Virus record (IMG/VR): IMGVR_UViG_3300038360_000249
Coordinates: 1-40,077 of that record
Length of the DNA stretch: 40,077 bases
Direction: 5' to 3' (one strand)
Source of the DNA: a virus
Shown: one piece after another, positions 11,017-33,153 of the stretch
Numbering within the stretch: position 1 is the stretch's first letter
How the letters are laid out: each line of letters begins with the position of its first letter
Notes under the pieces: generated by a model
What the model saw: only the letters and a program-made list of their open reading frames with translations
Database searches by the model: none
What the model was told of the DNA's origin: nothing
Position numbers and translations under genes: made by a program

Positions 11017-11406
11017 TTATAGTTTATATACGTTTGCGTGGCAGCTAATATTAGTTGATCTATCGAATCTGAAGATGTCCCCCCTGTGTCTAAATCTTGC
11101 GTTCATAGCGTCCGAGACGGTGAATACTCCGTTGCACCTGTCGTCCCCTGGATAGTCTGTAGATATTAGTAGTATCTTATCCCCCGCTTTGAATGGCCCA
11201 TTTTTGCCATAGAGTGACCACTGGATCAACTCTTGAGAGAATGCTATAGGTCGCTCCCCTCGCTTTGCCATTTGGCATATGTTGTAACCAGTGCCCCCAG
11301 CTATACAAGGGGTTGAGTCTGTTTGCCCCACCTCTGGATTGTATGAGGTGAGGAAAACGTCAGAAAGTGTTGGGGGTTTTTGAGAAGGCCCCCCTCCTTC
11401 TAGTGA
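11017..11406 (-). CDS. 3D (Asp-Asp-Asp) domain reading frame, entered by -1 frameshift
   Basis: The frame is open from just after TAA 11409-11407 down to TAA 11019-11017. It encodes a linker (SLEGGGPSQKPPTLSDVF) and then a complete 3D domain. Diagnostic segments are LTSYNP, VGQTDSTP, a Cys pair, RPIAFSQ, GPFKAGDKILLI, and GVFTVSDAMNARF with its conserved Asp and Asn. 3D domains form double-psi barrels in peptidoglycan-active lytic transglycosylase-like proteins. There is no ATG, GTG or TTG before the first domain strand; the first usable start (GTG 11331) would remove that strand. The frame instead continues from the upstream anchored ORF 11400-11744 through a -1 shift, giving a predicted 242-residue membrane-tethered enzyme. 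Confidence 0.75.
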   Translation of the reverse strand, partial: SLEGGGPSQKPPTLSDVFLTSYNPEVGQTDSTPCIAGGTGYNICQMAKRGERPIAFSQELIQWSLYGKNGPFKAGDKILLISTDYPGDDRCNGVFTVSDAMNARFRHRGDIFRFDRSTNISCHANVYKL

Positions 11407-11412
11407 AAAAGA
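11372..11412 (-). promoter_or_regulatory. Predicted -1 ribosomal frameshift signal with H-type pseudoknot
   Basis: On the minus strand the 0-frame codons CTT TTT CAC TAG (11411-11400) include a run of five T, on which tRNA-Phe can slip back one base to TTT. Four bases further lies an H-type pseudoknot. Stem 1 is AGAAGG (11401-11396) with CCTTCT (11388-11383), 6 bp. Loop 1 is A11395. Stem 2 pairs five of the six G at 11394-11389 with CCCCC (11376-11372). Loop 2 is CAAAAA (11382-11377), an A-rich loop of the type that docks in the stem-1 groove. This is the canonical geometry of a stimulatory pseudoknot. Both flanking ORFs make sense only if joined. Not experimentally shown. Confidence 0.7.
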
Positions 11413-11744
11413 TTACACTCCTCATTCTGCACTTCCAGCCCTTTGAGTTTTTTATACTCAACAAGTCGGTAGTGGTGGAAACAGAAGTTGTCTCCTGAGA
11501 AGATCTCTTGTGCGTGAGTTTTACGTTTTAAATCCGATACCCGTTCAATTTCCAGGTCAGCGATCTGATTAGTTTTTATCGCTTCACTATAGATGTGAGC
11601 TGCTTGAGCGCGCCCTTTTTCGCGAGCCTCAAGTTCCGAGTCAACTGCTACCGCATAAACGGTGACTGCAAACAAAGGGACAAGAAGTCCTATTGCCAGT
11701 GGTTTAATTCCTTTGAATTGTAAAATTTTTGTAAAGTTTTTCAT
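11400..11744 (-). CDS. Membrane-anchored N-terminal part of frameshifted 3D-domain protein (114 aa)
   Basis: A basic N-terminus (MKNFTKILQFKGIK), one hydrophobic anchor (about residues 14-34, LAIGLLVPLFAVTVYAVAV), then a charged helical region (35-75) and a Cys/His-containing stretch (residues 84-114, FCFHHYRL...NEECNLFH) before TAG. Alone it is an anchored protein with no enzymatic domain. The next base positions carry a frameshift signal leading into the 3D domain. The 0-frame product and the fused product would share residues 1-113 and so could form mixed complexes. Single anchor plus wall-active domain suggests action on peptidoglycan from the membrane. Confidence 0.7.
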   Translation of the reverse strand: MKNFTKILQFKGIKPLAIGLLVPLFAVTVYAVAVDSELEAREKGRAQAAHIYSEAIKTNQIADLEIERVSDLKRKTHAQEIFSGDNFCFHHYRLVEYKKLKGLEVQNEECNLFH

Positions 11745-11756
11745 TTTTGTATGTGG

Positions 11757-11924
11757 TTAAAAAAATACTGATATAAATTGGAATGTGACGAATCCTACGA
11801 ATCCGACAGGGATACTTAGAAATACGTATCCGGTTGCCTTCGGAGCTTTCCAGAGGGCGAGGGTGAGTAGTGCGAATATTGTAAACGTCACTATGTACCC
11901 GGAAAGGTTTATGTCTAGTTGCAT
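11757..11924 (-). CDS. Small membrane protein (55 aa, two helices)
   Basis: ATG at 11924, TAA at 11757-11759. The two hydrophobic segments are at about 8-26 and 32-54, separated by a basic WKAPKA loop. It lies directly between the HNH gene and the anchored 3D-fusion gene. It may be a partner of the latter, or simply another small phage membrane protein. No family is recognised. Confidence 0.55.
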   Translation of the reverse strand: MQLDINLSGYIVTFTIFALLTLALWKAPKATGYVFLSIPVGFVGFVTFQFISVFF

Positions 11925-13502: not shown

Positions 13503-14117
13503 TTAAAAAGTAAGTTCTTCGATCATTTCATCTATCTGCTGGAGTGAGAGGGTTTGATATTCTAAATACCAATCTACCTTCTCTTGCAGTTCCTCCCGGG
13601 TAAATTCTTTAGCGAAAAGAGGTTTCGCAGTGAGCCTTGGGTCATAGAAAACGAGGTATAGCTTTTCGAGGTCTTCGTTCACTATGAAGTATTGCATGAC
13701 CTGCTCCTCGTAATCCTTTGGCACTCCAGCTTCAAAGTAAGCTTGCAGATGTCGAGATGTTGAGAGGCATTTAACTTCAACCGCCTCTTTGTATTTACCG
13801 TCCACCTTAATCAGACCATCGGGACTTACGGCGATACTTGGATTGGATTCACTTACGCAGAAGCCGACAGCCTCCACTTCTTTATCATATTCCTTTGCGA
13901 ATAGATCTAGCGCCTCCGGTTCCAACCTGTGACCTCTGTCCATCGGGTTTTCTGGAGCCTCCTCAAGCCCTATCCGCTCAGCCATGATTTCGTAGAATCC
14001 GAGCTTACGCCCGACTCCACGCTTTGTCACAAGCTTTTTAAGCTTTGAGCCGGTAATTTTTCCTTTACGAGCACTTAACCACTCATCGGTGTTTTGCTCA
14101 AGTTGTAGGATTTTCAT
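13503..14117 (-). CDS. YqaJ-family (lambda-exonuclease-like) recombination exonuclease
   Basis: A 204-residue protein with the YqaJ viral recombinase signature: GKITGSKL near the N-terminus, RGHRLEPEAL (E66), VSPDGLI (D100) and AVEVKC (E114, K116), forming the PD-(D/E)xK active site. It also has a C-terminal helix containing YEEQVMQYF. Such enzymes degrade 5' strands at double-strand breaks and load the partner annealing protein. The partner RecT gene overlaps its start by 20 bases, a strong sign of a functional exonuclease/annealase pair. Confidence 0.88.
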   Translation of the reverse strand: MKILQLEQNTDEWLSARKGKITGSKLKKLVTKRGVGRKLGFYEIMAERIGLEEAPENPMDRGHRLEPEALDLFAKEYDKEVEAVGFCVSESNPSIAVSPDGLIKVDGKYKEAVEVKCLSTSRHLQAYFEAGVPKDYEEQVMQYFIVNEDLEKLYLVFYDPRLTAKPLFAKEFTREELQEKVDWYLEYQTLSLQQIDEMIEELTF

Positions 14118-14910
14118 CGTTACTTGGGGTTAAGGATAATTTTAGTTCGTCCTTGAGGCGGATTACTTCCGGTGAAGCTTTAGCATTCCCCTCAAGAGCT
14201 TTCCAACACCCTTTGAGTTCATCAACGGTGGCGCAGGTCTTTAGAGTTTCCATAGCCTGTTTTGTTTTATCAGGCTCAGGCTCTTTGATGTCTCCTGCTT
14301 GCAAGCCATACGTAGCATTGTCCTCTTTGTCGATTTCAGCTACCACGTCATAGAAGTAACGTTTACACGCACGTTTCATGACAGACTTAAGCCAAAATTC
14401 AGACTCCCATTGCGTCCACAAGAACTTCATTTTGCTAGCGTTTTTCATCTTTTCATAGTCAGCGAGGTTGAGCGATTCCATCAACTCCCCCCGCTTCGTT
14501 TTAAAGATAGCGTACGCACCAACGATTTTGGTGTCGGTGAATGGGTTGGCTATTTTGTGAGAGTAAGAGATCTTTCCAGACTCTTTTCCAAAGCTGAATG
14601 TGTCGCCCTCTCTCACGAGTTGCACATCTATTTGTGCTTCCGGGTACACATTTAATACGGCGTTTCTGTAACCGTGATAGGTTACCATCGTCATATTGTT
14701 TCCAGTAACAACCACGTTTACACCGTCTAAGGTAAGACCAAGGCCATGATATTTAAAAGCCATATCACTCAAAACTTCATCAGTATTCGAAGATACTGGC
14801 CGTTTATCGCTGGCTTTTTTTGCCTCTGTCCTCCTCGCAGCATTAACATAGGCGAGGAATTTTTCTACCTCGTCTTGTGGCATACCTTGTTGTAGGAGTT
14901 TTTCTTTCAT
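14098..14910 (-). CDS. recT: RecT-family single-strand annealing protein
   Basis: The sequence shows RecT/Bet features: LSDMAFKYHGLGLTLDGVNVV, a VTYHGYRNAV segment, SHKIANPFTDTKIVGAYAIF, and WLKSVMKRACKRY. RecT proteins coat ssDNA and anneal complementary strands, working with the adjacent YqaJ exonuclease. I place the start at ATG 14910 (MKEKLLQQG), giving 270 residues, because the upstream ATG at 14943 overlaps the -10 element of the only good leftward promoter (TATTAT 14947-14942) and would precede the transcript. It is the first gene of the leftward early operon. Confidence 0.85.
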   Translation of the reverse strand: MKEKLLQQGMPQDEVEKFLAYVNAARRTEAKKASDKRPVSSNTDEVLSDMAFKYHGLGLTLDGVNVVVTGNNMTMVTYHGYRNAVLNVYPEAQIDVQLVREGDTFSFGKESGKISYSHKIANPFTDTKIVGAYAIFKTKRGELMESLNLADYEKMKNASKMKFLWTQWESEFWLKSVMKRACKRYFYDVVAEIDKEDNATYGLQAGDIKEPEPDKTKQAMETLKTCATVDELKGCWKALEGNAKASPEVIRLKDELKLSLTPSNDENPTT

Positions 14911-14941
14911 TGTATAAGGGTTAGTTGCTTTAACCGGAACC

Positions 14942-14970
14942 ATAATAATCTATAGTTTCGTAAAAGTCAA
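14942..14970 (-). promoter_or_regulatory. Leftward early promoter
   Basis: On the minus strand TTGACT (14970-14965), 17-base spacer, TATTAT (14947-14942). Predicted start is near 14935, about 25 bases before the recT ATG at 14910. It is back-to-back with a rightward promoter (14976-15004). It drives the whole operon down to 6268 unless internal promoters exist. Confidence 0.65.
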
Positions 14971-32722: not shown

Positions 32723-33073
32723 ATGAAAAAATCAGAACTAAAAACAGAGTTGGATAAGCTGGAAGTCAAATATGACGATGCAGCTACCAACAAAGAGCTA
32801 GAAGCTCTGCTGAAAGCGAATGTCGCTGCTGAGCCTGAGATGGGAGTTATATCTCCTCGGGACGCAGTAGTAGCAAAAGCTTCTGATGATTACACTGCAA
32901 AGAAGCTTGAGAAAGGGCTTGCAGAAAACGAAAGTGAAGTGGTCATTAATGGGAAAGTTTACATCAAGGTTTCAAGACCTGACGGAACAACCCATCTAGC
33001 AGACAAAGCTTTGGACAGAGCACGTGCCAAGCGAGATCTTCTCGCAAAAAGTGCTAAATACCGAAAAGTGTAA
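32723..33073 (+). CDS. HeH/SAP-like N-terminal domain protein (116 aa)
   Basis: Residues 1-32 (KSELKTELDKLEVKYDDAATNKELEALLKA) match the short helix-extended-helix (HeH/LEM-like) motif found in phage head-completion proteins. The rest is charged and ends basic (DRARAKRDLLAKSAKYRKV). Possibly a DNA-contacting head-neck protein. Motif recognised by pattern only. Confidence 0.6.
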   Translation: MKKSELKTELDKLEVKYDDAATNKELEALLKANVAAEPEMGVISPRDAVVAKASDDYTAKKLEKGLAENESEVVINGKVYIKVSRPDGTTHLADKALDRARAKRDLLAKSAKYRKV

Positions 33074-33153
33074 ACCCTATTTAGGGAGGGAGGGGGTGAA
33101 TCTCTCCGAGATTCGCCCTCCCTAGAATGGGGTTTAAGAAATTAATTCTTAAA
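33072..33153 (+). promoter_or_regulatory. Large composite hairpin between virion genes
   Basis: Nested pairs: AAACCC (33072-33077) with GGGTTT (33130-33135); TAGGGAGGG (33082-33090) with CCCTCCCTA (33116-33124), 9 bp; GAATCTC (33098-33104) with GAGATTC (33108-33114), 7 bp. A second palindrome TTTAAGAA-ATTAA-TTCTTAAA follows (33133-33153). There is no long T-run, so it is more likely an RNA processing, stability or expression-tuning element than a classical terminator. It begins at the stop codon of the preceding gene. Confidence 0.5.

Follow-up and report, generated by a model that had tools for sequence, protein, structure and literature searches.

A candidate programmed -1 frameshift between a membrane anchor and a 3D/MltA-like domain in a metagenomic phage

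Gene layout and signals at the junction

The stretch analysed here (the window) comprises the 40,077 nucleotides of IMG/VR virus record IMGVR_UViG_3300038360_000249, and carries on its minus strand two open reading frames (ORFs) that overlap in a 0/-1 register. The 0-frame ORF (11400..11744) encodes a stub of 114 aa with a short, positively charged N-terminus, a single predicted transmembrane helix in N-in orientation (residues 16-34, 11643..11699; mean Kyte-Doolittle 2.46, four K/R on the N-side) and a charged helical spacer. It ends at a TAG (11400..11402), one codon past the slip site described below; the anchor and spacer are thus located where a preliminary description of the locus had placed them. 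The -1 frame ORF (11017..11412) encodes a Gly/Pro-rich linker followed by a predicted 3D/MltA-like double-psi barrel (11020..11361). Reading of the sequence revealed no ATG, GTG or TTG in this frame upstream of a GTG at 11329..11331, and NTG or ATN codons are also absent from the stretch ahead of the domain. The GTG, its earliest standard start, lies within the domain and downstream of the T-x-Y strand, so initiation there would lose part of the predicted active site; the earlier statement that no start precedes the first strand of the domain was therefore accurate. Because the two ORFs overlap by only 13 nt, any switch of frame must fall on TCTTTTTCACTAG.

The overlap contains an in-frame slippery motif at CTT TTT (11406..11411, minus strand), read in the frame CTT TTT CAC TAG. 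It is a U_UUU tetramer (11409-11406) and not a canonical X_XXY_YYZ heptamer, and a homotetramer is expected by chance in 8% of overlaps of 13 nt. Four nt downstream of the U-run, a slightly short spacer, begins a predicted H-type pseudoknot (11372..11401, minus strand) with a stem 1 of 6 bp (11401-11396/11388-11383), a loop 1 of 1 nt (11395), a stem 2 in which five of G11394-11389 pair with C11376-11372, and a loop of 6 nt, CAAAAA (11382-11377). Both the T5 run, read CTT TTT CAC, and the pseudoknot four bases on had been noted before and were recovered at these positions. For stem 2, previously given as 5-6 bp, the lower value holds, as six Gs face only five Cs.

Compact H-type pseudoknots were scored at every position of both strands, with stem energies calculated as a simple stacking sum, so that the resulting ranking is relative. 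By this score, just two of 80,034 start positions reach the strength of the pseudoknot at 11401, its own included. Only 0.02% of 8-nt spacer windows hold a pseudoknot as strong, and in a wider search none of 1500 in-gene sense positions matched its strength. The sole other compact pseudoknot of equal strength, at 33085 on the plus strand, overlaps an inverted repeat just past an ORF ending at 33073, which is maybe a terminator.

Two further observations concern the surroundings of the gene. In both the window (11757-11924) and the related record L085 (4445-4600), the anchor gene is immediately preceded by a small ORF, ~50 aa long and with two hydrophobic stretches, which possibly encodes a holin-like partner. 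The same minus-strand region of the window encodes a RecE-like exonuclease and a RecT-like annealing protein (13503-14943).

The domain in the -1 frame

The AlphaFold model of the domain is a barrel (pLDDT 82). Its top structural matches belong to phage proteins, some of which are annotated as 3D-domain or RlpA-like (E down to 5e-7), followed by weaker matches to DPBB proteins in the PDB (E 3e-3) and a weak match to YuiC (E 0.12). The catalytic residues of YuiC are T91, Y93, D129, D151, and D162 (PMC4499186). In a by-eye motif comparison, the T-x-Y of the first strand and a pair of Asp spaced 11 residues apart in the window's domain correspond to YuiC T91, Y93, D151, and D162, and the equivalent of D129, the first of the three Asp, looks like Ser. 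No Pfam or NCBIfam model recognises the domain. The Pfam 3D model (PF06725) in particular gave no match at E<=1 in the window or in its relatives, while control genomes do match. The claim of a complete 3D domain was thus borne out in fold and, by eye, in most of the YuiC residues, but not in a match to the Pfam model; the domain is accordingly called 3D/MltA-like here rather than a member of Pfam 3D. It shares the double-psi barrel, the T-x-Y strand and the two Asp 11 residues apart with YuiC and the MltA family (3D domain, PMC4499186), and differs from them in the missing Pfam match, the apparent Ser and additional conserved Cys. Four Cys are invariant, which suggests that the domain is exported and hence needs the anchor.

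The domain probably acts on peptidoglycan. Support for a role at the wall comes from its joining to M23 and CHAP domains in two relatives: L011 (631-1839) encodes a single chain of transmembrane helix, coil, M23 and 3D-like domain, with the M23 match below the Pfam cut-off, and L012 (1114-1824) a single chain of CHAP and 3D-like domain. Compared with L002, the -1 frame has 34, 17, and 83 differences at codon positions 1, 2, and 3, respectively, and this third-position excess shows that the frame is under selection.

Single-frame and split relatives

Scans of IMG/VR viral records, like all sequences compared here metagenomic assemblies, returned about ten membrane-anchored members. Anchor and domain are encoded by a single ORF in L002, L004, L005, L007, and L011, and also in L082, in which the contig end cuts the gene. 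Single-frame fusions of the two parts thus exist in five or six of the ~10 relatives, and because these carry anchor and domain in one continuous ORF, the two frames of the window belong to one protein, in agreement with the initial view that they fit only when joined. The joined product matches the single-frame homologues, of which L002 is the closest relative (67% identical).

Three further -1 splits were found, yet most relatives are single-frame. In L003, L067, and L085 the gene is split at the same linker as in the window, with the domain in the -1 frame each time, and the stubs of the split members consist of the transmembrane helix and ~80-90 further charge-rich residues. Four splits that are all in -1 register would be expected by chance in 1 of 8 cases were the direction random. 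The split members do not group in the tree, which implies 3-4 changes of state, and the topology that unites them in one clade was not formally rejected (p-AU 0.064). The terminase of the window had no match in the 10 tested records that carry the gene, and these are therefore separate phage lineages; terminase relatives of the window, in turn, showed no copy of the gene. No close homologue was detected among INPHARED phages and PLSDB plasmids, nor one among 380 genomes from the phylum to which a Kaiserbacteria match belongs, a search with no positive control at the cut-off used.

Conservation of the signals, which the preliminary description had proposed as a check, was not found. The U-run is not conserved, each split member having its own slip signal, and the pseudoknot of the window is shared by no relative. 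Such conservation counts as support for frameshifting of the Z_ZZN type, which does not strictly require it. L003 has the canonical in-frame heptamer A_AAA_AAG and a run of A9 at the junction. L085 combines the canonical in-frame heptamer G_GGU_UUA and, 5 nt downstream, a 4+3-bp pseudoknot, which is weaker than that of the window (3% of positions are as good). In L067 the motif is either U_UUA or A_AAA; A_AAA lies, as in the window, one codon ahead of the stop. No structure was detected downstream of the motif in L003 and L067, and in all three split relatives, whose overlaps are longer, a slip motif is not improbable by chance. Near the junction, the longest homopolymer of L067 and L085 has at most four bases. 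Homologues with unconserved pairing and a separate start for the domain had been named as evidence against frameshifting. The pairs are indeed unconserved, and in L085 an ATG of the -1 frame precedes the domain, which may be initiated independently there, but the -1 frames of L003 and L067 have no start before it.

Proposed programmed frameshifting and its alternatives

We consider it likely, judging from sequence, that the window gene uses programmed -1 ribosomal frameshifting. The weight rests on a combination of evidence: the same linker and register in four of four split members, no start in three of them, the outlying pseudoknot of the window, the selection seen in its -1 frame and, in a rough scan of the split contigs, no excess of other start-less genes. 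Ribosomes translating the stub would arrive at CUU UUU CAC UAG and be slowed by the pseudoknot 4 nt downstream, and in a minority of them tRNA-Phe would leave its UUU and pair anew with the UUU that overlaps it, one base upstream. We infer this slip and its rate; slipped ribosomes would read on as ...NLF|SLEGGGPSQK... into the domain. The major product would then be a membrane stub with a helical spacer, and the minor product the same anchor with an exported, probably disulphide-containing 3D/MltA-like domain. The stub may oligomerise with the enzyme or restrain it, or the arrangement may instead keep the dose of enzyme low. In E. coli, where all 16 tetramers were tested with the IS3 pseudoknot placed 5 nt downstream, U_UUU ranked third and the six best gave 0.26-5.6% frameshifting; IS elements use U_UUU naturally (PMC4066793). 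By analogy, most of the product in the window would be stub and only a little of it fusion, although these are the rules of E. coli and may not be those of the host.

The most serious competitor, which we nevertheless regard as unlikely, is that assembly or sequencing indels removed one base from each contig and that the true genes are single-frame. It would fit the T5 of the window and the A9 of L003 at the junction, the single-frame state of most relatives and the metagenomic origin of every contig. Assembly error is rendered unlikely by the position of the splits, as four of ~10 anchored members are split, all by -1 and all at the linker, and two of these, L067 and L085, are without a homopolymer over four bases near the junction. 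In addition, a rough scan of the four split contigs found no comparable excess of other start-less genes.

Transcriptional slippage, whereby an altered run length in the mRNA at a homopolymer would yield the same fusion, is less probable still. A run of nine A suffices for polymerase slippage and the A9 of L003 is thus long enough, but the T5 of the window is short for it, the runs of L067 and L085 do not exceed four, and the strong pseudoknot would be left unexplained.

How these phages start their genes bears on whether the domain could be initiated separately. Shine-Dalgarno (SD) motifs of at least 5 nt precede 0 of 43 genes in the window and 0/36, 0/35, and 0/31 in the other split records; the records of the window, L002, L003, L067, and L085 have almost no such motifs before genes and show A-rich leaders. 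Gene starts of this kind make it probable that initiation in the host is independent of SD pairing; promoter motifs gave no clue to the host. In the window and L067, the slip site is preceded by AGGAG/GGAGG, which was considered as a dnaX-type stimulator and dropped, as the phages are almost devoid of SD motifs; an SD-like motif is expected at that place by chance in 5-7% of cases for each. Independent initiation of the domain as a second protein, via reinitiation past the stop or an unusual start, ranks marginally below slippage of the polymerase. The ATG of L085 and an AAGGAGG after the stop in the window would be in its favour. It is opposed by the absence of ATG, GTG or TTG ahead of the domain in the window, L003, and L067 (and of NTG or ATN in the window), by the disuse of SD leaders, and by the fact that the domain alone would have no export signal despite its four invariant Cys. 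Least probable of all is a natural indel that broke a gene now decaying or phase-variable, as the -1 frame retains all invariant residues and its third-position bias, the homopolymers of the window, L067, and L085 fall short of the length needed for phase variation, and the register is always -1, even if the split state is scattered over the tree with 3-4 changes.

Among known systems, programmed -1 frameshifting as proposed for the window most resembles that of IS3-family transposases, with which the gene shares overlapping 0/-1 ORFs, a homopolymer tetramer, a downstream pseudoknot and a 0-frame stop soon after the slip (PMC4066793). That family uses a Z_ZZN motif with a pseudoknot ~5 nt downstream, compared with U_UUU and a spacer of 4 nt here. 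In contrast to IS3, the window gene encodes a phage membrane-anchored envelope protein and not a transposase, and its slip signal varies among relatives.

Known frameshifting in phages mostly concerns tail assembly chaperones, such as gpG/gpGT, in which a short abundant product is accompanied by a rarer C-terminally extended one. The same pair of products is proposed for the window, but its protein is non-structural, exported and encoded in an early/accessory region, and the extension is enzyme-like. The PRFect paper counts lysins among the phage genes known to frameshift and cites a Lactococcus phage whose lysin is encoded by two overlapping genes (PMC10885494). There, too, a phage wall enzyme would depend on two overlapping frames, although it is a lysin and not, as in the window, a membrane-anchored 3D/MltA-like protein. 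Recoding in phage wall enzymes therefore appears to have some precedent and is not wholly new. For phage 3D or MltA-like proteins, no account of frameshifting turned up in the literature searched, in line with the initial remark that no phage 3D-domain protein made in this way had been described.

More tentatively, and with slightly more doubt than confidence, we propose that a family of membrane-anchored phage wall enzymes repeatedly acquires or retains programmed -1 frameshifting at the boundary of anchor and catalytic domain in hosts without Shine-Dalgarno leaders, whereby the signal turns over, the register is kept and the stub serves as dose limiter or partner. If true, recoding would reach into the control that phages exert over the host envelope, through a -1 switch that recurs in an exported protein directed at the wall. 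Single-frame and split versions of one protein coexist and offer a natural comparison for the benefit of frameshifting. In the split phages, gene callers would overlook the domain.
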